Shown here one piece after another: positions 1,435 through 26,122 of a DNA stretch of 26,904 nucleotides (position 1 is the stretch's first letter; the number at the start of each line of letters is the position of its first letter). The notes under the pieces were generated by a model. The model worked only from the letters and a program-made list of their open reading frames with translations. It did not search any database and was not told the origin of the DNA. The stretch comes from a virus, in the IMG/VR virus record IMGVR_UViG_3300042402_000691, positions 1 through 26,904 of that record. One strand, given 5' to 3'. The position numbers and the translations under genes were made by a program.

Positions 1435-1463
1435 ATTATATAGTCAACAAAAAAGCCAGTCAA
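1435..1463 (-). promoter_or_regulatory. Sigma70-like early promoter TTGACT-N17-TATAAT inside a terminator
   Basis: On the minus strand TTGACT is at 1463-1458 and TATAAT at 1440-1435, with exactly 17 bases between. The predicted start near 1428 leaves a short leader containing AGGAG before the ATG at 1414. The -35 box lies in the 3' arm of the preceding terminator hairpin, and its T-tract makes up part of the spacer. Confidence 0.75.
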
Positions 1464-1482
1464 TTAAAATTGCTGGCTTTTT
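1449..1482 (-). terminator. Rho-independent terminator after the 271-residue gene
   Basis: The arms AAAAAGCCAG (1482-1473) and CTGGCTTTTT (1459-1450, minus strand) pair. The inner bases form a further CAATT-TT-AATTG helix with one bulged A. Six T residues (1454-1449) follow the GC part. It lies 16 bases after the stop of the late gene at 1498 and insulates it from the early operon. Confidence 0.88.
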
Positions 1483-2618: not shown

Positions 2619-2626
2619 TATTTATT
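2619..2626 (-). promoter_or_regulatory. Late-promoter-like octamer AATAAATA, very close to the start
   Basis: AATAAATA lies 7 bases before the ATG at 2611 and contains the stop TAA of the upstream gene. If used, the mRNA would be nearly leaderless. It may equally be a chance result of an AT-rich gene end. Confidence 0.35.
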
Positions 2627-2966: not shown

Positions 2967-3603
2967 TTTTATCTCCAGGCGCGGCAATAGCACTGCTACC
3001 GCCTCTATCTTTACTGACTAATTGCTGCGGTTCATGGTTCTCTTCACCTTTAGCAACACGACGGGCACGTTTAAGTCCGTCTAATACTACTTTGAGGCTG
3101 CTCTCGTCTGCTTGATATTTAATGCCAATACCGCCTGCTGCCTCCCATGCTGAGATATTACTGCCACGATCATCGATCAATACATTAGGCATACCATCGG
3201 CATTTTTAGCATACTTGGCTTTATTTGGGGTAATGTGTATTAGTTTAGGTTGGGTCGCTAATTCTCTAGCAATCCAACTGCGTTTATATTTTGCTGATCC
3301 TTCATAATCTCCACGTAATGGACTTGAGCAAATATTATATCCACCTGCTGCATCAACAGCAATTTGTATTAGTTTATCAGTTGTAGGAAACTTAGGAAGT
3401 CTATCAAAGAAATCCGTGCCTACCATTTTATCTAATGTAGGATCTGCCTTGGCTGGAGGAATACTGCGATAATCGTGTTTACCATATTTGTTTGCCGGAA
3501 CACCTGCTAACTTAGCATACTCGTGAAAGAAGTCTGCAAGAACCCCATCCATATCTAGATAGATTTCCATTCCTTCCGGTAATGCTAAATCACTGGCTCT
3601 CAT
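2953..3603 (-). CDS. HAD-family 5'(3')-deoxyribonucleotidase-like phosphatase
   Basis: A 216-residue HAD-superfamily protein. Motif I is [11 protein letters not shown] (residues 15-25) with nucleophile Asp17 and Asp19. A Ser-containing motif II (ICSSPL) is at 91-96, and the acidic motif IV (LIDDRGSNI) at 142-150. This arrangement fits the NT5C 5'(3')-deoxyribonucleotidases, which remove phosphate from nucleoside monophosphates and could help balance pools during phage DNA synthesis. The C-terminal tail (about 180-216) is charged and extra to the fold. The start overlaps the ErpA gene stop as ATGA. The first residues ([11 protein letters not shown]) weakly resemble the capsid-targeting-like N-termini of neighbours. 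Confidence 0.8.
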
Positions 3604-3950
3604 GCGCTAAAAGAACTCCCACACCCACATGTAGTTTGTGCTTGTGGATTTTTAATATTGAACTGACTACCTTGTAATGACTCTGTATAGTCTACTTCTG
3701 CACCTTGTAGATATTGACTACTCATAGCATCAATCAATAAATGTATGCCTTCAAACTCTAGATCAAAATCATCTTCATTTGCTTCTTCTTCAAAGGTAAA
3801 GCCATACTGCATACCACTACATCCACCACCACTAACAAACATTCTTAATTTTAAGTTAGGATTATTTTCTTCTGCGATCAGTTCTTTGATCTTAGCGATA
3901 GCACCTGGATTCATTTTAACTAATTGTGGCTGTTCTATTACTGTATTCAT
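3600..3950 (-). CDS. erpA: ErpA/IscA-type iron-sulfur cluster carrier
   Basis: A 116-residue A-type Fe-S carrier, complete and close in length to bacterial ErpA (114). The conserved cysteines are all present: Cys44 in [14 protein letters not shown] and Cys108/Cys110 in [10 protein letters not shown] at the C-terminus. [19 protein letters not shown] is very like the E. coli ErpA segment, so ErpA is a better name than IscA. These proteins receive a [2Fe-2S] or [4Fe-4S] cluster and pass it to target enzymes in the cytoplasm. The gene overlaps both neighbours by four bases (ATGA), so it is part of the same transcript as the nucleotidase-like gene. Confidence 0.95.
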
Positions 3951-5309: not shown

Positions 5310-5637
5310 AGTCGCCGTTGGCTATATGGCCTTCTTGTTCTTTAGCCATTTGTTTAGCTAATTCAATAAGTTGTTCCTTGGGAAATTTTACTTCTGGATC
5401 TTGGATTTCGTATTGTTCGCAATAACTATCTAAACATTTTTCAATAGGTTTGATATAAATTTTATACGCATTTGGGTTGCCTTTATATTCTTGATGACGT
5501 TTAACAGCAGGAAAGAAATGATTGCTGAGCATTTTTTCATCATTATCGATATAAAATTTTAAGTCACCTATCCAATCGATATCTTGATCGGCTTCCTTAG
5601 GAGCTCCAATAGGACTAAACAGTTCAAATAACTTCAT
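5299..5637 (-). CDS. Small acidic hypothetical protein
   Basis: A 112-residue protein when started at ATG 5637, which has TAGGAG upstream and forms a TAATG junction with the previous gene; a TTG two codons earlier is less likely. The N-terminus MKLFELFSPIG resembles its neighbours' targeting-like peptides but lacks the final (I/L)-x-E. The remainder is predicted helical, with CLDSYCEQYE near the middle and KFPKEQLIELAKQMAKEQEG near the end. No family is recognised. Confidence 0.7.
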   Translation of the reverse strand: MKLFELFSPIGAPKEADQDIDWIGDLKFYIDNDEKMLSNHFFPAVKRHQEYKGNPNAYKIYIKPIEKCLDSYCEQYEIQDPEVKFPKEQLIELAKQMAKEQEGHIANGDYEN

Positions 5638-6698
5638 TACCAACTCCTACATGACCAATATCGTGCTTTCCAACGCGGCCCTGGATTTTTACAGTTGTGT
5701 CTAGCACGGAATGAACGTCTACGTGCTGGATTTGATTTCTTAATACGCATTTTCTTATCGCCAAAGTTTACTTTAACAATATTACCGTTAGGTTTGCGTA
5801 CATATACTTTTGATTTCTTTACATCGCCGGCCATCTTTTTACCTAATGGAACTTCGCGACCTTGATATTTGGCTTCGTCAACGTTATTATCTTCAGCATA
5901 TTTGTTAGCTTTCATATAATCACGTGCTGTATCTAAATAGTCCATGGCCTTAGTAATCTTAGCCTGCACCCACTCTGGAAGATTTTCATCTGCTTGGATA
6001 ATACTGTATAGTTCTTTAGCAGCATCATTTACAGTACGCAACTGATCTTTGGCCATATCACCTTCACGATCATATTCACCAACATTGTAACTTGCGTCTG
6101 GATTCTCAGGACCGTGATCTTCTTTCTTGTATTTGTCTTTGATTTTGCCGAGTTCTTCTTCACTAGCACCATCACGACCTGCTTGTGCAAGTGCAGTCAT
6201 GCCATCTTTACCGTATTTCTTTTTTCCGGTGTAGTATTGTAGACCGCTTTCACCTATCTTAGTGCAATCGTTCTTGCCTACTCTGCGATAGCCTTTCCAA
6301 CAGGCTTTGCCGTGTGTGCCTTTATCTTTGTCTTCTACAAGCTCGCCTTCTAAGAATGTTAATCCCTCATTGGTTAACATTTCTAAGGCTGTATCATCTA
6401 ATTCAATAACGATGCCATCTTCTAAGAATCCTATAATTTCTGTGCCAATTTCGTGATCTTCAGAAAAGCTAATTCCAAAAGAGTCACCAATTTGAAACAG
6501 GTCTTCTTTAACCCCTTTAGTATGTGCTTCTTTATCTAAATCTAATTTACGCTGCTTAATAGCTTCTGGATCTATATCTTTATTTTTTTCTAGATCTTGT
6601 AAAGTTTTAGATTTAGCAGCATAATCGCCTTTAGGATCGGCTACATTAAGTGCGGTTTCGTTAATTAATTCGTCTAATTTTGATATAAGGTCTCTCAT
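5637..6698 (-). CDS. Conserved-type phage protein with basic Arg-rich C-terminus, probable virion protein
   Basis: A 353-residue protein with start set at ATG 6698. An upstream ATG at 6719 exists, but the late promoter GATAAATA (6724-6731) would leave it almost leaderless, whereas 6698 has GGAAC upstream. The chosen start gives MRDLISKLDELINETAL, ending I-N-E before Thr like a prohead protease site. Further along are a segment GKACWKGYRRVGKNDC, a helical acidic region (about 200-270) and a very basic C-terminus (KSNPARRRSFRARHNCKNPG, then ARYWSC) that could bind DNA. It is the first gene of the late cluster. A virion role is inferred. Confidence 0.75.
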   Translation of the reverse strand: MRDLISKLDELINETALNVADPKGDYAAKSKTLQDLEKNKDIDPEAIKQRKLDLDKEAHTKGVKEDLFQIGDSFGISFSEDHEIGTEIIGFLEDGIVIELDDTALEMLTNEGLTFLEGELVEDKDKGTHGKACWKGYRRVGKNDCTKIGESGLQYYTGKKKYGKDGMTALAQAGRDGASEEELGKIKDKYKKEDHGPENPDASYNVGEYDREGDMAKDQLRTVNDAAKELYSIIQADENLPEWVQAKITKAMDYLDTARDYMKANKYAEDNNVDEAKYQGREVPLGKKMAGDVKKSKVYVRKPNGNIVKVNFGDKKMRIKKSNPARRRSFRARHNCKNPGPRWKARYWSCRSW

Positions 6699-6723
6699 AG
6701 TATGGTTCCGTAAGGTCATACTA

Positions 6724-6731
6724 TATTTATC
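6724..6731 (-). promoter_or_regulatory. T4-type late promoter GATAAATA
   Basis: GATAAATATA on the minus strand, 25 bases before the ATG at 6698, in the gap after the 120-residue gene. It fits the NATAAATA late promoter and probably drives the cluster running down to position 2351. Confidence 0.7.
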
Positions 6732-6743
6732 GCCTTTCAAAAC

Positions 6744-7106
6744 TTAGTGATTATATCGGATTTGGGTAATAGTACCGTTTTGTAGGTTATATGCAGCACG
6801 AATCCACACAAATTTACCAGTAAATGTAACTGAATTTGTAGTGGTCGATATAGAACTATCAGAACCAAAGCCTATTTCGGTACTGTTAACATCAAACCAA
6901 TCGTTATCACCAGGATACAGTTCTAGCGTAGCTTGTATTTTTATAGTGCCTATAAACGAGTCAACTTGATAAACAGCAGTATGCACACCATCGTTATACT
7001 TGTGATAGCCTGCTCCCTTTTGTTTGTCAGAATATATAAAGGAGGAATCCCCAGGGACAGCTTCTTGGGAAACGTTAGATAATAGAATTGTGCTTTCGGT
7101 GGACAT
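6744..7106 (-). CDS. Small beta-rich protein, possibly a virion protein
   Basis: A 120-residue protein rich in Thr, Ser, Ile and Val with a pattern typical of beta sandwiches (VYQVDSFIGTIKIQATLELY, then SVTFTGKFVWIRAAYN). No signal or catalytic motif is seen. Similar short beta domains occur in phage tail and head decoration proteins, which is the best guess for its role. The ATG at 7106 has no clear Shine-Dalgarno sequence; an NATAAATA octamer ends four bases before it. Confidence 0.7.
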   Translation of the reverse strand: MSTESTILLSNVSQEAVPGDSSFIYSDKQKGAGYHKYNDGVHTAVYQVDSFIGTIKIQATLELYPGDNDWFDVNSTEIGFGSDSSISTTTNSVTFTGKFVWIRAAYNLQNGTITQIRYNH

Positions 7107-7109
7107 CAG

Positions 7110-7763
7110 TTATTTATCGCTTAAGACGTAGTTATATACACTACCCATAACTTCTGGATTTCTTAATTTAAGCATTAATAAAGTGCCTTCATCTTCTACC
7201 AGGACATATCTCCGGTCCCAATTCCACTCAGTTTTCATAAACCAACCCTGTACAGCATCGGTGCAGGTAATTCTAGGTGATTGACCAATCAGCCAATTAA
7301 TATATTTCTGTTTGCCATCTGGATCATTCTTAAGTTTATGAGGTTGCAGATAAACCCTAAACTGATATTTTCCATGAGGTAGTTTAGGAGTTAGAATAGT
7401 TTTTGATTCTAAAGTTTGCCCGGACGGGGCAGATCTATGTATAACTTGATCATGGAACTTTTCAGAAAGATCTTCATATATACTAGGTTCGTTAGTATAA
7501 AAATCTATCTGTCGAGTTTCAATACGTTTGGTCCATGCCTTAGGATCTACCGTTTCTAAATAATCTATTAACGGAAGTATCTGATCTTTGTGAGATTTAA
7601 CACTAGCCGATAACCATCTAAACATATCATCTTGATCAGAATTACAAAGTTTTTTAATTTTATCAAAATCATACATTCTAAAAAGATTAGAATACGGAGC
7701 ATCAAAAGAAACTTTATACAACCATTTATTGTAAAATTTCTTGTTAGTTGTTAGTGTTTTCAT
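7110..7763 (-). CDS. Hypothetical protein, 217 residues
   Basis: Unrecognised protein started at ATG 7763 (MKTLTTNKKFYNKW); a TTG four codons upstream is less likely. It is rich in Lys, Trp and Tyr and looks globular, with two halves: a helical N-terminal part (about 1-95, including DMFRWLSASVKSHKDQILPL) and a more beta-rich part (about 120-217, including WFMKTEWNWDRRYVLVEDEG). It overlaps the clpA stop by 20 bases, so it is translated from the same transcript as the chaperone genes. No conserved catalytic residues can be named. Its position suggests early or middle expression. Confidence 0.7.
   Translation of the reverse strand: MKTLTTNKKFYNKWLYKVSFDAPYSNLFRMYDFDKIKKLCNSDQDDMFRWLSASVKSHKDQILPLIDYLETVDPKAWTKRIETRQIDFYTNEPSIYEDLSEKFHDQVIHRSAPSGQTLESKTILTPKLPHGKYQFRVYLQPHKLKNDPDGKQKYINWLIGQSPRITCTDAVQGWFMKTEWNWDRRYVLVEDEGTLLMLKLRNPEVMGSVYNYVLSDK
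7111..7118 (-). promoter_or_regulatory. Late-promoter-like octamer GATAAATA next to a start codon
   Basis: GATAAATA ends four bases before the ATG at 7106 and includes the stop TAA of the 217-residue gene. The proximity would make a leaderless mRNA, so this is a weak call. Confidence 0.35.
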
Positions 7764-10092
7764 CTGCGGTCTCAACTATAGGTTCTGCATTTTTTGCAGC
7801 TTTGAGAGCCTTACGTTCTGCTTTCGTTAAGGGTTTAGGTAATTCAGTTACGGTAAAAGATAACTCATCATTTTCAACGGTGATGTTTACACGACCACCA
7901 TCTACTAAATCTCCAAATAACACTCTTCGGCTTAATGGACTTTTAACTTTATTATCAATCAAGCGTGCTAATGGTCTAGCACCCATTTTACTATCGTACC
8001 CTTTTTCTGATAACCAACGAACAGCATTAGCACCTGCTACAATTTCAATACCTTTGTCTTTAAGTTGATCGTTAAGTTCTTCGATAAATTTCTTAACAAT
8101 CTGAGAAACAGTGTCTTGAGATAGTTTGGTAAATTTAATAATACCATCTAAACGATTACGGAATTCCGGAGCAAAGAATTTTTTAACTGCTTTTTCATCT
8201 TCACCATCGCGACCTAAGTCTCCAAATCCAATAGTGTTATTTTCATTATCAGCAGCCCCTAAATTTGATGTCATAATAAGAATAGTGTTACGACCGTCTG
8301 CTACTTTACCATTTGATCCTGTGACAAATCCATTATCCATGAATGCCAATAATATATTTGTAACATCTGGATGTGCTTTTTCGATCTCATCTAACAACAA
8401 GATACTGTTTGGAGTTTCTTGTAGTTTAGTAATAAGTTGGCCAGCATTATCTTCATAGCCTACATAACCCGGAGGAGCACCGATCAAACGAGCCACACTG
8501 TGCTTCTCTTGATATTCACCCATGTCAAATCTTACCAATGGCATGCCCATTTTTTCTGATAGTTGTTTAGCAGTTTCAGTCTTACCGCAACCTGTTGGTC
8601 CAAGGAAAAGGAATGAACCAATAGGTTTATTAGGCGACTTCATGCCGGCTTGTGCTACAAAGATCTTATCTAACAATGTATCTACAGCATTATCCTGCCC
8701 ATACACAGCACCTTTCATACCTGATTCTAGATCAGCGAGATTTTTACTTTCTTTTTGTGCTACAGTTTCAAGTGGCATATTGATCATTTTACTAAGTTCA
8801 TATGTAACCTGTTCGATGTCGACAATTTGTTCTACACCTTCGGTAGTTTCATCATCTTTAAGTTTATATCGAGCTGAAGCGCAATCGATGATATCGATAG
8901 CTTTATCTGGTAACTTCTTATCGTTCATGTATTTCACAGATAGTTTAACTGCTTGTTCGATAGCAGCATCACTGATCTTAACATTGTGATGTTTTTCATA
9001 ATACTTTTTAAGTCCTTTAAGGATCTTAACAGCCATCTCTGGACTAGGCTCGTCGATAGTAACACGTTGGAAACGTCGCATCAACGCACGATCTTTTTCA
9101 AAGTGCTTGCGATATTCTTCCCATGTAGTTGAAGCAATAAGTTTAATAACACCTTTAGTGAGTACTGGTTTTAATAAGTTAGCTAGATCATTTGGACTAT
9201 TACTTGCTGTACCAGCACCACTCATCATATGTGCCTCGTCGATGAAAAGAATGATCTTGCCTTTCTTTTCAAGAGCATTTAATACAGCTTTAATACGTTC
9301 TTCAAAGTCACCTCGATATTTACTACCGGCAAGTAATGCACCAATATCTAATGTGTAGACAGTATGGTCTTGAATAAATTTAGGAACTTTCTTTTCAAAG
9401 ATCTTACGAGCAATACCTTCAGCGATAGCAGTTTTACCTACCCCTGGTTCACCTACCATGAGAACATTTGATTTGTTACGTCTTGCTAACACAAGATTAA
9501 TTTTTTCAATTTCTTCATCTCGACCAATAACAGGATCGATAGTTCTTTGTTTTGCCTTCAATGAAAGATTGGTACAAAATTGGTTAAGGATTTTTTCACT
9601 ATTTCCATGATGTGCAGAAACTCTAGTTTCTTCACCCTCTTCTTCTAATTCTTCAACAACAATATTTTCTTGGAAGAATTTAACAAACTTTTCTTTAGTA
9701 ACTCCGCCTTTTTGTAAGAAGTAAAATCCAAAGCTATTTTTTTCTGAAAGTACACTAACAATAACATCAGATACTTCCATACGTTGACGGCCACTGAATA
9801 GAACCTGTGTAAAACAACGATTGAGCACACGTTCTACGCTGTTTGTTTTTTTAGGCTTGATATTCTTATTATCGGTTTTAATGTCAGCCATATTATTTTT
9901 AATATAATGTTCGAGATTGGACTTAATGAAATTAGCATCAGCACCAAATCCTTCCATAAGAGTATAAGAATCTTGATCGCATAGGATTGCATAAACTAAA
10001 TGTTCGATAGTTATATATTCATGCTGATGTTCTTGTGCAATCTTAATACTGTTTTCAAAGATAGCTTGCAGATTTTGACTTGGTTCGATCAT
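7744..10092 (-). CDS. clpA: ClpA-type AAA+ unfoldase
   Basis: A complete 782-residue Clp/Hsp100 ATPase, slightly longer than E. coli ClpA (758). The double Clp N-domain (about 1-150) is followed by the first AAA+ module with Walker A GEPGVGKT (214-221) and Walker B ILFIDEAH (281-288), then the second with GPTGCGKT (498-505) and LLLDEIEK (565-572), and sensor-2 GARPLAR (704-710). There is no ClpB/Hsp104 middle coiled coil, so ClpA is preferred. IGF at 621-623 sits where ClpA has its ClpP-docking IGL loop, so it probably feeds substrates to host ClpP; no clpP is in the window. It directly follows the deformylase gene (stop TAA, then ATG). Confidence 0.95.
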   Translation of the reverse strand: MIEPSQNLQAIFENSIKIAQEHQHEYITIEHLVYAILCDQDSYTLMEGFGADANFIKSNLEHYIKNNMADIKTDNKNIKPKKTNSVERVLNRCFTQVLFSGRQRMEVSDVIVSVLSEKNSFGFYFLQKGGVTKEKFVKFFQENIVVEELEEEGEETRVSAHHGNSEKILNQFCTNLSLKAKQRTIDPVIGRDEEIEKINLVLARRNKSNVLMVGEPGVGKTAIAEGIARKIFEKKVPKFIQDHTVYTLDIGALLAGSKYRGDFEERIKAVLNALEKKGKIILFIDEAHMMSGAGTASNSPNDLANLLKPVLTKGVIKLIASTTWEEYRKHFEKDRALMRRFQRVTIDEPSPEMAVKILKGLKKYYEKHHNVKISDAAIEQAVKLSVKYMNDKKLPDKAIDIIDCASARYKLKDDETTEGVEQIVDIEQVTYELSKMINMPLETVAQKESKNLADLESGMKGAVYGQDNAVDTLLDKIFVAQAGMKSPNKPIGSFLFLGPTGCGKTETAKQLSEKMGMPLVRFDMGEYQEKHSVARLIGAPPGYVGYEDNAGQLITKLQETPNSILLLDEIEKAHPDVTNILLAFMDNGFVTGSNGKVADGRNTILIMTSNLGAADNENNTIGFGDLGRDGEDEKAVKKFFAPEFRNRLDGIIKFTKLSQDTVSQIVKKFIEELNDQLKDKGIEIVAGANAVRWLSEKGYDSKMGARPLARLIDNKVKSPLSRRVLFGDLVDGGRVNITVENDELSFTVTELPKPLTKAERKALKAAKNAEPIVETADENTNN

Positions 10093-10587
10093 TTATTCTT
10101 TTTTCCTTATTTTCTTCATAGCTAATTGTAACTTCATTTGTGATACTCTGTCAACAAAACATACACCATTTAGATGATCATATTCGTGCTGAAAGCATTT
10201 GGCTAGATATCCCTCAGCTCTGATTTCTTTTAGATTACCGTAGCTGTCTTGATATTGCGCAATAATCCAGTCTGGTCTTTTTACCTTTAGAAATAGATCG
10301 GGATAACTTAAACATCCTTCTTCGTCTAATACTAATTCCGAACTGGCTTCTGTTACTATAGGATTAAACACAGCGAATGGCGCAGGGAATCCTTTAATAT
10401 TATTACTGCCCATAACGAACACACGTTTAGTTAATCCAACTTGATTAGCAGCTAATCCAATTCCGTTATTGGCTAACATAAATTCGATTAAGTCTTGTTC
10501 TAATTGTTTGGCATCACCGTCAACTCCAAACTTCCAATCAGTACTAACCTGTATAAGACTTTCGTGGGGACCTAGATTAAACCCCAT
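10093..10587 (-). CDS. def: Peptide deformylase
   Basis: A 164-residue peptide deformylase that removes the formyl group from the N-terminal Met of new proteins. All three signature motifs are intact: GIGLAANQVG (42-51), EEGCLSYP (89-96, metal ligand Cys92) and QHEYDHLNG (133-141, HExxH with His134, Glu135, His138). It is close to normal bacterial length, and slightly short at the C-terminus as in other phage versions. It overlaps the 3' end of dnaJ by 11 bases and is followed immediately by clpA. Phage deformylases are known auxiliary genes; here it sits in a three-gene protein-quality operon. Confidence 0.96.
   Translation of the reverse strand: MGFNLGPHESLIQVSTDWKFGVDGDAKQLEQDLIEFMLANNGIGLAANQVGLTKRVFVMGSNNIKGFPAPFAVFNPIVTEASSELVLDEEGCLSYPDLFLKVKRPDWIIAQYQDSYGNLKEIRAEGYLAKCFQHEYDHLNGVCFVDRVSQMKLQLAMKKIRKKE
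10125..10154 (-). promoter_or_regulatory. Sigma70-like promoter TTGACA-N18-TACAAT upstream of clpA
   Basis: TTGACA at 10154-10149 and TACAAT at 10130-10125 on the minus strand, 18 bases apart, inside the end of the deformylase gene. The predicted start near 10118 gives a leader of about 25 bases with AAGGAAA before the clpA ATG. It could be a secondary promoter or chance within coding DNA. Confidence 0.4.
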
Positions 10588-11413
10588 TCTTTAGTTCCTG
10601 TATTTTTTGATATTGATCGTGGGTTAGATTTCTTGGTACGCTAACTTTAATTCTAATTAAGAGATTGCCTCGGTGTTTAGTTCTCATGTCAGGAAGTCCT
10701 TCGCCGTTACAACTCATTACAGTGTCTGGTTGTGTACCTGGAGGTATTGTAATATGTAGATTTTTGTTATCCAATGTATTAATAGCGATCTTTGCACCTA
10801 ATATAGCATCCCAGACTGTGATAGATTTTTCAAATATTAGATTGTTTCCTTCTCTGCGGAAGGTGCTATTTGGTCGTATAAAAACATTAACTATTAGATC
10901 TCCCGGGCGTAGATCGGGCATACTATGATCGCCCATTCCTTGATATTTGATCTGCTGTCCGTGTTGTATGCCTGGAGGTATCTCAATATTAATCATCTTT
11001 TTATTACCGCCAGGAATACCAACCCCTGCATTAAGTTCTTTACCAGTTAATACTTCTTCTAAGTTAATTTCAACATTAATGCTTAAACTTCTATTTCGAC
11101 GCTGAGGTCTTCCACCAAATCCAAAATTTCCAAAAAGATCGTTTAAATCTTCAGTGCCAAAATGGAATTCAAAAGGATTCCCCTGCCCATGATGATAGGA
11201 TCCACCTCCTTGTGAATTTGGATCTCCCCCTAGGTCGATGATTGATTTCTTCTGGGGATCAGTAAGATATTCATAGGCTTGAGAAATTTCTTTAAATTTC
11301 TTTTCATCACCACCGCGGTCGGGGTGATGTTTCATTGCTAGGCTGCGATATGCTTTTTTAATATCGTCAGTATTAGCGCCGCGTGTTAATCCAAGAGTTG
11401 AGTAATAATCCAT
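10577..11413 (-). CDS. DnaJ/CbpA-like co-chaperone without zinc fingers
   Basis: A 278-residue J-domain protein. The J domain is at 1-65 with the HPD motif at 30-32 (MKHHPDRGG), which stimulates DnaK ATPase. A Gly-rich linker (about 66-100) and a DnaJ C-terminal substrate-binding region (about 105-278) follow. The CxxCxGxG zinc-finger repeats of DnaJ are absent, so it is a type II protein like CbpA. The start is fixed by the J domain itself (MDYYSTLGL), and no Shine-Dalgarno sequence lies upstream: the promoter places the transcript start at or next to the ATG. It leads the dnaJ-def-clpA operon and overlaps def by 11 bases. Confidence 0.93.
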   Translation of the reverse strand: MDYYSTLGLTRGANTDDIKKAYRSLAMKHHPDRGGDEKKFKEISQAYEYLTDPQKKSIIDLGGDPNSQGGGSYHHGQGNPFEFHFGTEDLNDLFGNFGFGGRPQRRNRSLSINVEINLEEVLTGKELNAGVGIPGGNKKMINIEIPPGIQHGQQIKYQGMGDHSMPDLRPGDLIVNVFIRPNSTFRREGNNLIFEKSITVWDAILGAKIAINTLDNKNLHITIPPGTQPDTVMSCNGEGLPDMRTKHRGNLLIRIKVSVPRNLTHDQYQKIQELKNGV

Positions 11414-11420
11414 AGCTTAT

Positions 11421-11449
11421 ATTATATAATAAAAAAAGGACTGTGTCAA
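11421..11449 (-). promoter_or_regulatory. Perfect sigma70 promoter TTGACA-N17-TATAAT inside a terminator
   Basis: TTGACA at 11449-11444 and TATAAT at 11426-11421 on the minus strand with 17 bases between, a full consensus match. The -35 box begins in the terminator loop and the seven-T tract forms part of the spacer. Only seven bases separate TATAAT from the dnaJ ATG, so the mRNA should be leaderless or nearly so. Confidence 0.82.
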
Positions 11450-11460
11450 GCAGTCCTTTT
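11431..11460 (-). terminator. Rho-independent terminator after the lysis operon
   Basis: On the minus strand AAAAGGACTG (11460-11451) pairs with CAGTCCTTTT (11443-11434) around a seven-base loop, followed by T to 11431 (seven T in a row). It lies 26 bases after the stop of the lipoprotein gene and separates the late lysis operon from the dnaJ operon. Confidence 0.92.
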
Positions 11461-11486
11461 ATTTAATCGAGATTTACTGAGGCAAA

Positions 11487-11711
11487 TTATTTTTTTGCTT
11501 TTTCTGGAACTTTAGTGCCTTCGAATTTTTTATGAATCTTAACAGTTTTGCATTGTTTAACTACTTTACCATCTTTACCTTTGGTATCAATACAAACTTG
11601 TTTGGTTTTTGGTGCTTCAACTGCTGGAGCTGCTGCTTCTTCTTTTGCACACGCTGTTAATGCAGCAAGTGATAAAACACTTGCAAAAACTAATGCTACT
11701 AATTTTTTCAT
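11487..11711 (-). CDS. Small lipoprotein, Lys-rich, function unknown
   Basis: A 74-residue predicted lipoprotein. A classic signal peptide (MKKLVALVFASVLSLAAL) ends in the lipobox LTAC with lipidated Cys21, leaving a mature chain of 54 residues that is Ala/Pro-rich and then Lys-rich, with two further cysteines (QVCIDTKG and VKQCKT). It is the last gene of the lysis operon, with AAGGAAAAC before its ATG and a strong terminator after its stop. It could be an accessory lysis factor or an envelope protein that changes the infected cell; the sequence does not decide. The signal peptide also looks like one taken from a bacterium. Confidence 0.82.
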   Translation of the reverse strand: MKKLVALVFASVLSLAALTACAKEEAAAPAVEAPKTKQVCIDTKGKDGKVVKQCKTVKIHKKFEGTKVPEKAKK

Positions 11712-11721
11712 TTTGTTTTCC

Positions 11722-12264
11722 TTATAGTTCTGGTTGTGGATCTGGGGTTGGCCCTAATTTACCACTTGCTGATGTAAATGTTGATCCCCCATAGCTAGGG
11801 ATAGATGTTGGTCTACTGCCGTAATATGCAGGAGTTGCTACGGGTGGAGCAACCGGAGCAGGTGCTGGTTGTGCCCAAGTTTGTTGTGGAGTTATTCCTT
11901 GATTAGGATTTCCAAGCCATTGTGGTTCTGGCGCTTTTACTTCGGGGAAAGCACCCGTCCCCAAATTAAAACCCTGTTTGTTTTCACCTGCCTCGATAGT
12001 TGCTATTTTTTCTTTACCACGAGTCCAAGCAGCAATACCTAAAATACCGCCCATTGCTAAGTGATATAAACCGCCACCTTGTAGTGTTAATGGAGTATAA
12101 CTAGTGATTGCCTGTCCTGGATTCCAATATTGTAAAATATTGAATAAGACTGGGCCTACGATAAAATCAAACCAAATAGTAGCCATATATGTTACGGCCA
12201 TTAACGGGCGCCACTTAGTGGTCATCCAATCCTCTGTTTTCTTTTCTGCTGCTGTTTGTGACAT
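11722..12264 (-). CDS. Putative holin with Pro-rich tail
   Basis: A 180-residue membrane protein. Two hydrophobic stretches lie at about 20-46 (PLMAVTYMATIWFDFIVGPV) and 62-80 (LYHLAMGGILGIAAW), separated by a short loop (TPLTLQGGG), and followed by a long Pro/Ala/Gln-rich hydrophilic tail (about 105-180). The opening KWRPLM and the FDFIVGPV element resemble phage holins of the 3TM gene-transfer-agent group. The place next to endolysin and spanin genes supports this. AAGGAG precedes the ATG. Holins make inner-membrane holes that release endolysin; the exact family is a judgement. Confidence 0.68.
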   Translation of the reverse strand: MSQTAAEKKTEDWMTTKWRPLMAVTYMATIWFDFIVGPVLFNILQYWNPGQAITSYTPLTLQGGGLYHLAMGGILGIAAWTRGKEKIATIEAGENKQGFNLGTGAFPEVKAPEPQWLGNPNQGITPQQTWAQPAPAPVAPPVATPAYYGSRPTSIPSYGGSTFTSASGKLGPTPDPQPEL

Positions 12265-12290
12265 ATTTCGCTCCTTAAACTGATACTATT

Positions 12291-12298
12291 ATTTACTT
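12291..12298 (-). promoter_or_regulatory. Weak late-promoter-like sequence AGTAAATA
   Basis: AGTAAATA on the minus strand, 26 bases before the holin ATG, one mismatch from NATAAATA, and overlapping the stop TAA of the o-spanin gene. The spacing is right for a late promoter but the match is imperfect. Confidence 0.3.
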
Positions 12299-12562
12299 AA
12301 TGTCTTCGAAAATCTTCTTTTGTTCTTGATGCCATTGTAAGAAAGCATCTACTTTAACACGGCATTCATAATATGTAGAATAGTTATCAACCACTATTTC
12401 CATAACTTTGCTTAATTGTGTAGTTCCTGGTTCTACTTTTTGTAATTCTGGACAGGCTGTTTTTAGTTCTGCTGGGATATCAGGAAAACTACGTTTAACA
12501 GGAACAGTTTCTAAACAACCGGTAAGTAAGAATACTGAAAATAATAATGCTATTTTTTTCAT
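12293..12562 (-). CDS. O-spanin-like (Rz1-like) outer membrane lipoprotein
   Basis: An 89-residue lipoprotein with signal peptide MKKIALLFSVFLLTGC, lipobox LTGC and lipidated Cys16. The mature part has a short Pro-containing stretch (FPDIPAELKTACPEL), as in many Rz1-like subunits, and then a helical region. Outer membrane spanins join with an inner membrane partner to fuse the two membranes in the last step of lysis. Its start overlaps the stop of the i-spanin-like gene by ATGA, the usual paired layout. Together with the endolysin next door, this makes the call fairly safe. Confidence 0.78.
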   Translation of the reverse strand: MKKIALLFSVFLLTGCLETVPVKRSFPDIPAELKTACPELQKVEPGTTQLSKVMEIVVDNYSTYYECRVKVDAFLQWHQEQKKIFEDIK

Positions 12563-13050
12563 TTTTTGTCCCCTTCGACTACAATAGGGCTAATTTCGAT
12601 AACCGGAACCTTTGCAGCGTCGTTGTGTATATCAACTGCTTCTTTAGGTACTTTACATTCTTTGTCGATAAGTTTTTCAACTACCTTAATTTTTTCTTTG
12701 GTAATCACTTTTGTATCATATATTATTTTTGTTTGTGATTTAACTTTATTATTAAGCTGTTCTGTAGCTTTTTTAGATTTATCTTCAGCTATCGCAATTT
12801 TAGCTTCTAGTTCTTTTACACGTTCACGCCATACCATCTCCGTAGCATATCCACCTTTAAAAAATAAACCAGCAGCTAATAATATAACACCAACTAATTG
12901 AAGTGGTAATTTATATCTATTGAAGAATGGAATCCATGCTAAGAAAAATCCAGAAATAGTAGAAAACAAACCTACATACAGGACAGTATTAATAATCCAT
13001 TGTAGCAAACTATCTGGTAACATGCTCCAAACGAAACTGAGCAACCACAT
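12559..13050 (-). CDS. I-spanin-like (Rz-like) membrane protein with coiled coil
   Basis: A 163-residue protein. Two hydrophobic segments (about 16-42 and 48-67) are followed by a long coiled coil of charged heptads (about 74-130, RVKELEAKIAIAEDKSKKAT and on) and a Pro-containing tail ending in VEGDKK. An inner membrane anchor with a periplasmic coiled coil fits the i-spanin role. A classical i-spanin has only one N-terminal helix; two would place the N-terminus outside, unless the first is a membrane-lying helix. It starts three bases after the endolysin stop and overlaps the o-spanin gene by four. Confidence 0.72.
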   Translation of the reverse strand: MWLLSFVWSMLPDSLLQWIINTVLYVGLFSTISGFFLAWIPFFNRYKLPLQLVGVILLAAGLFFKGGYATEMVWRERVKELEAKIAIAEDKSKKATEQLNNKVKSQTKIIYDTKVITKEKIKVVEKLIDKECKVPKEAVDIHNDAAKVPVIEISPIVVEGDKK

Positions 13051-13052
13051 AA

Positions 13053-13682
13053 TTAATGTGCTCCAAAGATATGAAGAGCGTGCTCGTAATGTTTAATACG
13101 ATCATCAAGCCCAATATACCCGCCGTTAATTTTGCGTGTCATAGTTTTAATATCGCCGGCATCGGCCTCTTTGTTTAATCCTGTACTTTCCCAGAAATAG
13201 CAGGCTGATTGAACAGCACCTTCAAATGTTTGAAGATATTCGGGAATATCTTCGATTGGGGTGTCAATAGACGCAGCGAACAGTGTATAGTTGTCTTTAC
13301 CTGTTAGTTGAATAAGACCACGACCGCAGTAACGGAACCCATCGCCACTTGATTCTGGACCATTTCCCATACGTCCACCATAGATTTTATTAGCAATCTT
13401 TTCTGGTTGTTTTTCGTATTTCTTTGCTTCGTCTAGAGTTTTGAAATACTTAGGAAATACTTTTACAAGGCTTTCTGCTTTGTAGTTTAAATTTTCTTTA
13501 AGGAATTTAAATCCGCCAGATTCGTGTGCGCATTGTGCTAAGAAAGCAGCTACACGTTTTGGTGTATTGATATCGTATTCTGAAAGAATCTCGCTAAGTG
13601 CATGAAACCAATGATCCAAATATGGATTTCCCGGAATAACTTGTGCTAGATGTTCTTTTTTAAAATCAAATGTAAAACTCAT
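13053..13682 (-). CDS. GH19 chitinase-like endolysin
   Basis: A 209-residue glycoside hydrolase family 19 enzyme, expected to cut the glycan strands of peptidoglycan from the periplasm once the holin opens. The catalytic Glu is in AHESGGF (Glu54), with a second conserved Glu at position 63 in LKENLNY, and the substrate-cleft motif GRGLIQLTGKDNY is at 120-132. There is no signal peptide or separate binding domain, so release should depend on the holin. AAGGATATAAG precedes the ATG. It is the first gene of the lysis set proper and is followed directly by the spanin genes. Confidence 0.92.
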   Translation of the reverse strand: MSFTFDFKKEHLAQVIPGNPYLDHWFHALSEILSEYDINTPKRVAAFLAQCAHESGGFKFLKENLNYKAESLVKVFPKYFKTLDEAKKYEKQPEKIANKIYGGRMGNGPESSGDGFRYCGRGLIQLTGKDNYTLFAASIDTPIEDIPEYLQTFEGAVQSACYFWESTGLNKEADAGDIKTMTRKINGGYIGLDDRIKHYEHALHIFGAH

Positions 13683-13683
13683 C

Positions 13684-14430
13684 TTATATCCTTTGCAATA
13701 TCATTGATTGACCGTTGTTGTCAAAAACAAACTTGTCACCTATTTTATTAATATTATAGTCACCTAAAACTTTAGTGAGCCAAAATATTTCGCTTGTTGC
13801 TTCTTGGTCTACAGAAATTGGATCTGTTGTGCCTTCGAGAATCTTATCGGTAGTTCCTTCTTTAATCATACGCAGTTGAACTTTTTTATCGAATGGTTTA
13901 TGGATAGTGATCACATCACCATCTAATGTTAAGTCGTCCATTAACGTCCTATTAAAGAAATGTTTAATACCTTCAACTTTGATTCGAGTCAACAATCCAT
14001 CATAATCTCTAGCGGTTGCTGGAATAACTGATCTTAAAGTTTCTTCTGTTACTTCATGCTCTTGATTTTTTTTATGATATTTAAATTTAAAATTCTCAAT
14101 GCCTGTTAATTTACGTACACCATAGGTTAATTCTTTAATTTGTTCTGCTAATCGTGAGCTTCTTGGAAGTTCGACAAATACAGAATATTCACCGTCAGCA
14201 TTTTCTCCTGAGCTAACATCGCTGTCTAATACGAAATGGTATCCCTTCTCAATAAATTCCATTAGGTCTTTTGCTGGTGCACGATCTTTAACTTGAAAGC
14301 TAACCACACAGACGTCACGGTCCTCTCCCATTTTAGAACTATATGTATCAACTTCAAAAGTTGGATAGACCATTTCTTCTAGGTCCATAGGACGAAGTCC
14401 TTCGTTAATCTGTTGGTTATTGTTCGGCAC
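13684..14430 (-). CDS. Conserved-type phage protein, 248 residues, GTG start
   Basis: Hypothetical protein. GTG 14430 is chosen because AGGAG lies at the proper distance upstream and because the N-terminus PNNNQQINEGLRPMDLEEM flows into the fold; a more upstream start would lie deep in the previous gene. It has two alpha/beta-like parts: about 30-125, with repeated beta strands (EDRDVCVVSFQVKDRAPAKD), and about 140-248. It overlaps the upstream gene by 14 bases and precedes the endolysin by one base, so it is in the same late transcript. A virion role is plausible but unproven. Confidence 0.75.
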   Translation of the reverse strand: MPNNNQQINEGLRPMDLEEMVYPTFEVDTYSSKMGEDRDVCVVSFQVKDRAPAKDLMEFIEKGYHFVLDSDVSSGENADGEYSVFVELPRSSRLAEQIKELTYGVRKLTGIENFKFKYHKKNQEHEVTEETLRSVIPATARDYDGLLTRIKVEGIKHFFNRTLMDDLTLDGDVITIHKPFDKKVQLRMIKEGTTDKILEGTTDPISVDQEATSEIFWLTKVLGDYNINKIGDKFVFDNNGQSMILQRI

Positions 14431-14941
14431 TTGCCATCTCCTGTGCTTGTTGTTCTGCTGGATCAATATGAGCATTTACTCCGCCATTCATAGTGATCAT
14501 ATCTTCAATCTTGTTTTTATCTAATTCAGTATATCCACGAGTAATATCGTGCATGAGTTTTTTAGGCATAGTGATCTTAACCATCCAAATAGGTTTTTGA
14601 TCAATTTTACCTTTGCGCGTCCCGGGGCGAATGTCATCTGGAGTTTTAATTTTTCGAACCTGATTTATTATGCTTTCTGCAAATTCTACTTTGCAACCAT
14701 AATCGAGTAACCGTTGTCCGCCTCTAGGTTCGGGCATCTTATCTTTAGGCCACATAAATGTACATTCCACATAGTACCTACTTTCTTTTGGACCAGAAAC
14801 TAATTCGCCGTCGATCCAGTTATCGTAAACGTAGGTATCTAATTCGTCAATAACACGCTCAAAGTCCTTAAGTAAATTAAGGCTATTGTTAGAACCGTAA
14901 ATCTGTTCTATATTAGTAATAATGTCTTTAATATCTGCCAT
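14417..14941 (-). CDS. Conserved-type phage protein, 174 residues, late
   Basis: Hypothetical protein with a clear pattern of a compact domain: an N-terminal helix pair (1-45), then beta strands with SRYYVECTFMWPKDKMPEPR, a GGQRLLDYGC element, and KPIWMVKITMPKKLM near 120-135. The tail (about 155-174) is Gln/Ala-rich. It is the first gene of the late lysis operon and has a textbook late layout: GATAAATA, then AGGAG, then ATG at 14941. It is probably a structural or assembly protein given late expression, but no family name is recognised. Confidence 0.78.
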   Translation of the reverse strand: MADIKDIITNIEQIYGSNNSLNLLKDFERVIDELDTYVYDNWIDGELVSGPKESRYYVECTFMWPKDKMPEPRGGQRLLDYGCKVEFAESIINQVRKIKTPDDIRPGTRKGKIDQKPIWMVKITMPKKLMHDITRGYTELDKNKIEDMITMNGGVNAHIDPAEQQAQEMASAEQ

Positions 14942-14956
14942 GATGTCTCCTAATTG

Positions 14957-14964
14957 TATTTATC
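14957..14964 (-). promoter_or_regulatory. T4-type late promoter GATAAATA for the lysis operon
   Basis: GATAAATACAATTAGGAG on the minus strand directly before the ATG at 14941: late octamer, short leader, Shine-Dalgarno sequence and start in 25 bases. It is the best-formed late promoter in the window and serves the genes down to the terminator at 11431. Confidence 0.82.
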
Positions 14965-25399: not shown

Positions 25400-25406
25400 T
25401 ATTTAG
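25400..25406 (-). promoter_or_regulatory. T4-type late promoter variant CTAAATA
   Basis: CTAAATAC on the minus strand, 18 bases before the ATG at 25381. The TAA within it is also the stop of the desaturase gene. It fits the late motif with a C in place of the first two bases. Confidence 0.5.
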
Positions 25407-26110
25407 CTGGGTCGAACTTTTGCCAAGCCTACTGTTCTTAATATCTGTATATACATCCAAGCTATATCAAATTCCCAAGGTTTACGGCTAAACTTAGGAC
25501 TTGCTGTATCTAAATGATGATTATTATGTAGTTCTTCACCTGCAACTATAATACCAATTGGACTAATATTGCGGCTAAAATCTTTAGTTTCACCGTTGCG
25601 ATAACCCCACCAATGTCCTAGTCCGTTAATTAAACTACCTGCCGCCACAGGAATCCAAGCAACTTGTACTGCCCATACTAGTAATCCCCAGGCGCCAAAT
25701 AATAGTAAATCAAAAGATAGCATTATGAACAAACCTAGTATAGGATATGGAGTGTACAGTCGACGTTCAATCCAATCTTTAGGAGTACCAGCTCCATACT
25801 TCATAACAAAGTCTGCTGATCGACATGGTGTGTTGTACAACTTCATACCAGTGGTCATTACTGTTAGTAGTCCAAATACGTGCGGACTATGAGGGTCACC
25901 TTCTACATCAGTTGTTTGATGATGTTTGCGATGTACTGCTACCCATGCTCGAGTATTCATACCTGTGGTGAGCCACAACCACAATCGAAAGAAATGATTC
26001 AGTGCGGGATGAAATTCAACACCCTTGTGTGATTGGCTTCTGTGTAGATAAAGTGTAACACATGCCATAGTGACATGAGTCATTAGTAGAGTTGATAGTA
26101 TGATTCCCAT
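25403..26110 (-). CDS. Fatty acid desaturase
   Basis: A 235-residue membrane desaturase (acyl-lipid/acyl-CoA delta-9-like). The three His boxes that hold the di-iron centre are intact: HRSQSH (23-28), HRKHH (60-64) and HNNHH (195-199), with a GHWWGYRN segment at 165-172. Membrane stretches lie before and between the boxes (about 5-20, 124-160). It is shorter than most bacterial members, mainly at the N-terminus, but looks complete. It would introduce a double bond into membrane lipid acyl chains using O2. ATG 26110 is chosen over TTG 26113. It is placed between virion genes, not with early metabolic genes. Confidence 0.93.
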   Translation of the reverse strand: MGIILSTLLMTHVTMACVTLYLHRSQSHKGVEFHPALNHFFRLWLWLTTGMNTRAWVAVHRKHHQTTDVEGDPHSPHVFGLLTVMTTGMKLYNTPCRSADFVMKYGAGTPKDWIERRLYTPYPILGLFIMLSFDLLLFGAWGLLVWAVQVAWIPVAAGSLINGLGHWWGYRNGETKDFSRNISPIGIIVAGEELHNNHHLDTASPKFSRKPWEFDIAWMYIQILRTVGLAKVRPS

Positions 26111-26114
26111 CAAG

Positions 26115-26122
26115 TATTTATT
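26115..26122 (-). promoter_or_regulatory. Late-promoter-like octamer AATAAATA, close to the desaturase start
   Basis: AATAAATACTTG on the minus strand ends four bases before the desaturase ATG and includes the stop of the oxygenase gene. If active it would give a leaderless mRNA. Confidence 0.35.

Follow-up and report, generated by a model that had tools for sequence, protein, structure and literature searches.

Composite promoter-terminator cassettes, termed PeSLs, have been described in T4-type phages (Arbiol 2010; Comeau 2014; both as cited in PMC4503421). Leaderless mRNAs are produced in mass from the middle and late genes of the Thermus phage phiYS40 (PMC3594737), and a study of phage AR9 remarks that transcripts of phages often lack a leader (PMC5312081). 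Composite promoter-terminators and phages with mass leaderless mRNA are already known; what is new in the locus described here is a register in which the -35 hexamer lies in the loop of the hairpin with the T tract serving as promoter spacer, the gene-specific conservation of this register, and the occurrence of leaderless geometry at promoters of both classes in T4-related jumbo phages of one clade.

The window, meaning the whole stretch of DNA analysed, is a virus contig of 26,904 nucleotides (IMG/VR record IMGVR_UViG_3300042402_000691). By its clamp loader, which is 53% identical, its closest sequenced relative is the jumbo phage PA5oct (Pseudomonas, Arenbergviridae), where phoH, the virion genes, dnaJ and clpA follow one another as they do here. 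The relatives of its DnaJ protein are mostly 57-88% identical and are encoded on viral contigs, the longest of 281 kb, apparently of freshwater phages; a scan of DnaJ proteins from bacterial genomes for a possible host returned distant cellular DnaJ only. Upstream of dnaJ on the minus strand, the sequence runs in the order AAAAGGACTG-CTTGACA-CAGTCCTTTT-TTT-ATTA-TATAAT-ATAAGCT-ATG, with the following features:

11460-11466, minus strand: TTAAATA box, kept in relatives as [GT]TAAATA 3-4 nt ahead of the GG of the stem
11434-11460, minus strand: predicted intrinsic terminator hairpin with a 10-bp stem AAAAGGACTG/CAGTCCTTTT and a 7-nt loop CTTGACA (5' stem 11460-11451, loop 11450-11444, 3' stem 11443-11434)
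11444-11449, minus strand: -35 hexamer TTGACA
11431-11437, minus strand: T7 tract, both terminator tail and a share of the promoter spacer
11421-11426, minus strand: -10 hexamer TATAAT, spacer 17
11413-11414, minus strand: predicted transcription start, on the A of the ATG or directly beside it, 7-8 nt past the -10 box by sigma70 geometry
10577-11413, minus strand: dnaJ (J domain and DnaJ C-terminal domain), first gene past the element
10093-10587, minus strand: peptide deformylase, second gene of the dnaJ unit
7744-10092, minus strand: ClpA-like ATPase, third gene of the dnaJ unit

The original prediction of a full-consensus sigma70 promoter sequence built into a terminator proved correct to the base (12/12 promoter positions, a 10-bp hairpin and its T tract). 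TTGACA, which had been said to start in the loop, is located there and in fact lies entirely inside it (11449-11444). The seven-T tract (11437-11431), the first four T of which are shared with the 3' arm of the stem, was rightly assigned to the 17-base spacer (11443-11427), which consists of the 3' arm, the remaining T tract and ATTA; TATAAT follows directly (11426-11421), and the expected seven bases, ATAAGCT, separate it from the dnaJ ATG at 11413. Within the 20 kb scanned, this element is both the top-ranking terminator and the sole 12/12 sigma70 promoter, and TTGACA-N15-19-TATAAT occurs only here in the whole record, with 0.045 perfect promoters per window expected by chance from dinucleotide shuffles. 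The folding energy of the hairpin is -12.3 kcal/mol (z = -5.1), and a promoter interlocked with a terminator was found in 0 of 3 shuffled windows. Comparison of the element with known RNA families in Rfam gave sub-threshold matches only. The -10 box of sigma32 (heat-shock) promoters resembles CCCATNTA, and such a promoter before dnaJ was ruled out, the -10 being TATAAT. The [GT]TAAATA box is present in all relatives that have the element, with variable bases between it and the GG; it looks like a late-promoter core, yet a transcript started from it would begin inside the hairpin.

The reading that we favour, with a probability of about 80%, is that this composite terminator-promoter gives a leaderless or nearly leaderless dnaJ-def-clpA mRNA, as one case of a habit in PA5oct-related jumbo phages. 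A polymerase that has transcribed the virion and lysis genes upstream would make the hairpin and its U tract and then stop, while host sigma70 polymerase would bind the same DNA as a consensus promoter that has its -35 in the loop and a spacer made up of the 3' arm and T tract; bound there, it could serve as a roadblock too. The new transcript would start past the hairpin, at the dnaJ AUG or no more than a few bases from it, and would not itself be terminated because its start lies beyond the hairpin; ribosomes would then start on the 5'-terminal AUG. The arrangement would represent a recurrent, selected way for a terminator and a promoter to share 40 bases while the new transcript escapes termination.

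The geometry of PeSLs was measured on the genome of RB49, the phage from which they were described. The dnaJ element resembles them in joining a strong sigma70-like promoter (12/12) and a stem-loop terminator (by structure only) in a short intergenic stretch. It differs in register: of 18 strong hairpins near RB49 promoters, 17 are placed in the spacer or around the -10 and none on the -35, whereas the dnaJ hairpin is centred near the -35 and its T tract forms the spacer. RB49 copies are also many and alike, and PeSLs are shuffled cassettes, in contrast to the versions of this clade, each of which is bound to one gene. PA5oct shares the dnaJ-clpA order, the presence of a hairpin immediately ahead of dnaJ and one promoter-in-terminator at another gene, but its dnaJ hairpin has no promoter boxes and its genome shows nearly no leaderless geometry.

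The Met codon at 11413 is taken to be the real start of dnaJ because the J domain, which had been expected to begin right at the start Met, matches from residue 2 and because an in-frame TAA lies just upstream, at a distance of two codons. The start codon is ATG, as a leaderless mRNA requires, and no Shine-Dalgarno motif precedes it, although many other genes in the window have one; the predicted 5' end of the mRNA is unstructured. The gap of 7 nt between TATAAT and ATG is one above the mode of the clade (6 nt), and an alternative start a few nucleotides upstream (for example at G 11416) would give a leader of 1-3 nt. The predicted leaderless or nearly leaderless dnaJ mRNA is supported by this geometry, which is conserved, by the covarying stem, and by a peak of promoters across the clade at 5-7 nt before ATG.

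Conservation was assessed in 41 distinct 60-base regions upstream of dnaJ. A promoter matching at least 9 of 12 positions is present in 32 of them, with a spacer of 17 bp in 31 of these 32 and a gap from -10 to ATG of 5-7 nt in 24 and of 9-11 nt in five. The stem is 98.9% paired among 27 aligned sequences, in which five of its ten pairs have changed on both sides, and its covariation score is higher than in any of 500 shuffles or in any slid register. Two relatives have the stems GGCTGC/GCAGCC (L047) and GGCCGC/GCGGCC (L048), each with a -35-like sequence still in the loop. Because the stem covaries and a -35-like loop persists across changed stems, selection appears to act on the pairing, on the T tract that relatives retain, and on the promoter alike.

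A second case of the design was found in the window, upstream of a gene (1154-1414) that matches phrog_639, annotated as 'transcriptional regulator', and that we read as DsbA-like:

1450-1482, minus strand: second terminator with an embedded -35, hairpin AAAAAGCCAG...CTGGCTTTTT
1435-1463, minus strand: second promoter, TTGACT-N17-TATAAT, overlapping the hairpin and followed by a leader and Shine-Dalgarno

This second element (1482-1435) reads AAAAAGCCAG...TTGACTGGCTTTTTT, then TATAAT. It is widespread in viral contigs, and its spacer is 17 bp in all 72 distinct relatives; where the ATG could be located (n=71), the leader is 17-28 nt long in 69 and an SD-like motif is present in 68. The dnaJ version was found only before dnaJ, and 70 of 71 occurrences of the second version precede DsbA-like genes, so that a mobile cassette was ruled out, each version being tied to its own gene. 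Hairpin and promoter are interlocked in the same register at metallophosphoesterase-like and nucleotidyltransferase-like genes in relatives and at one PA5oct gene.

This recurrence bears on a simpler explanation, namely that an ordinary terminator and promoter have been squeezed together for space, the overlap having no role of its own and the dnaJ leader being merely very short. Such compaction is a serious possibility, though we think it somewhat improbable. It would fit the existence of dnaJ upstream regions with a hairpin only, the other hairpins of the clade that sit just upstream of promoters without shared bases, and the many late boxes that lie near the stop of the preceding gene. It does not readily explain why several independent genes share the interlocked register (those for DnaJ and the DsbA-like, metallophosphoesterase-like and nucleotidyltransferase-like proteins, and the one in PA5oct), or why the -35 stays in or beside the loop though the letters of the stem change.

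The original prediction called for a comparison of related phages, and named relatives that keep the hairpin and lose the boxes as evidence against it. Its expectation is borne out in 28 of the 41 regions (window included), where the promoter and hairpin are interlocked, with the -35 inside or touching the loop and, in nearly all, a spacer of 17 bases and a gap to ATG of 5-11 nt, but several distant lineages (L039/L041, L049 and L052/L063), and PA5oct, have a hairpin without boxes before dnaJ. The promoter and hairpin are therefore not inseparable. In L050 the overlap is kept, yet there is a 25-nt leader with AGGA and a GTG start; L021, L026 and L062 have neither the hairpin nor the promoter boxes upstream of dnaJ. 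The dnaJ hairpin of L053, L054 and L064 has the -10 (TATAAT) in its loop, an arrangement also found in RB49. The terminator looks to be the most widespread part, with the promoter apparently optional and fitted to it in various ways. The deep branches of the DnaJ tree lack the resolution that would be needed to order the gain and loss of the promoter.

The lineages in which a hairpin precedes dnaJ with no recognisable promoter also favour an attenuator, by which dnaJ would be read mainly through regulated read-through from the upstream unit, the sigma70 boxes being weak or unused in the real host. We consider this unlikely, as both boxes are kept at a fixed spacing of 17 bp in most lineages and a read-through mRNA would have no ribosome site between the hairpin and the ATG. 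A divergent dnaJ lineage (L056-L061) has an inverted repeat, GTTGACTAGTAGGTCAAC, over the -35, with no T tract and with 6 nt between -10 and ATG; this repeat may be an operator. That the inverted repeat of the window, which is centred on the -35, is an operator at which a dimeric phage or host protein represses dnaJ is very doubtful, since compensatory changes alter the letters of the half-sites yet keep the pairing, and only one side retains the T tract, both of which better fit an RNA terminator.

The composite terminator-promoter separates the dnaJ unit from an upstream unit, which the terminator would close:

14957-14964, minus strand: GATAAATA, T4-type late promoter box; the upstream unit's first gene, which has a Shine-Dalgarno, starts 15 nt further on
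11487-14941, minus strand: upstream unit, with genes for two virion proteins, an endolysin, and spanin-like, holin-like and small lipoprotein-like products

The GATAAATA box is kept in six relatives. That the element ends a late operon, as originally proposed, is well supported by the lysis and virion genes, by the conserved NATAAATA box ahead of them and by a gp55 homologue. This late sigma factor, the gene for which lies outside the window, gave a weak match in a search with RB49 and was then confirmed with PHROGs (phrog_12791, E 1.6e-80, in relative G009). The downstream dnaJ unit would be early, judging by its promoter type.

Leaderless geometry was surveyed in eight related contigs (about 0.99 Mb). 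There, 94 sigma70 sites that match 11 or more of 12 positions have an ATG that opens a reading frame no more than 80 nt downstream; 26 of them show a gap to this ATG of 5-7 nt, one of 8-19 nt and most others of at least 20 nt. The eight contigs are kin, and these per-site counts are not independent. Control TATAAT sequences without a -35 have a gap of 5-7 nt in only 3 of 77 (Fisher 2e-5 against 26/94), and the corresponding counts for sigma70 sites are 1/54 in RB49 and 1/19 in PA5oct. No close-gap peak was seen for sigma70 sites scoring 9-10/12, where it is lost in the background. Of the 141 T4-type late boxes (NATAAATA) in the clade contigs, 52 have a gap of 4-7 nt (peak at 4-5 nt), compared with 0/24 in RB49 and 4/54 in PA5oct; the control boxes TATAAAGA and TATAATTA gave no close-gap peak. 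Counted by gene family, leaderless geometry is present in 14 of 52 sigma70 families, four of the 14 being represented in at least two genomes, and in 27 of 65 late-box families.

Since the last base of TATAAT is normally at -7 and that of the T4 late box at -6, the modes of the gaps (6 nt for TATAAT, 4-5 nt for NATAAATA) set +1 at the A of the ATG or right beside it. SD-like motifs precede 2 of 26 close-gap sigma70 genes versus 38 of 46 leadered ones, and none of 52 close-gap late-box genes versus 52 of 73 leadered ones, a contrast that arises in part because the -10 box occupies the SD position. Start codons in the close slot are ATG in 22 cases, TTG in two and GTG in none. Since the stop of the previous gene is at most 20 nt away in 24 of the 52 close-gap late genes, packing may be one reason for the absence of a leader. 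Late boxes (GATAAATA or AATAAATA) lie 4-7 nt before the ATG of four genes in the window, for which leaderless late mRNAs are predicted:

2619-2626, minus strand: late box before the gene at 2351-2611
6724-6731, minus strand: late box before the gene at 5637-6719
7111-7118, minus strand: late box before the gene at 6744-7106
26115-26122, minus strand: late box before the gene at about 25403-26110

Some late boxes of the window include the stop codon of the previous gene. Like T4 late promoters (TATAAATA, gp55), those of the clade combine NATAAATA boxes with a gp55 homologue, but TATAAATA lies 26-40 nt before the ATG in 11 of 13 RB49 cases, whereas the commonest gap in the clade is 4-5 nt.

Many sigma70 (early) and gp55-type (late) promoters of the clade thus lie so near the ATG that +1 would fall on it. 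It is reasonably probable that these phages run a parallel, leader-free mode of expression across genes of both promoter types, with the A of the AUG as +1, and that they probably adjust host translation to it, as phiYS40 does. As in phiYS40, many genes of a large phage would be translated leader-free; the difference is in the phage and its promoters, which in this clade are of sigma70 and T4 gp55 types and are known here from sequence geometry. A large set of leaderless genes, in both temporal classes of an apparently freshwater jumbo-phage group, is predicted in this way; such genes lack the ribosome site on which gene finders and expression models depend, and they bear on the takeover of translation by phages. 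Two PA5oct proteins were rejected as clues to leaderless translation, its S21 because the relatives have no match to it, and its 'IF-2-like' protein because it looks small and of low complexity, not like an initiation factor.

Two genes on the minus strand of the window, as read from their translations only, are possible auxiliary metabolic genes: one resembling an A-type iron-sulfur carrier (3600-3950) and one resembling a fatty-acid desaturase (25403-26113).
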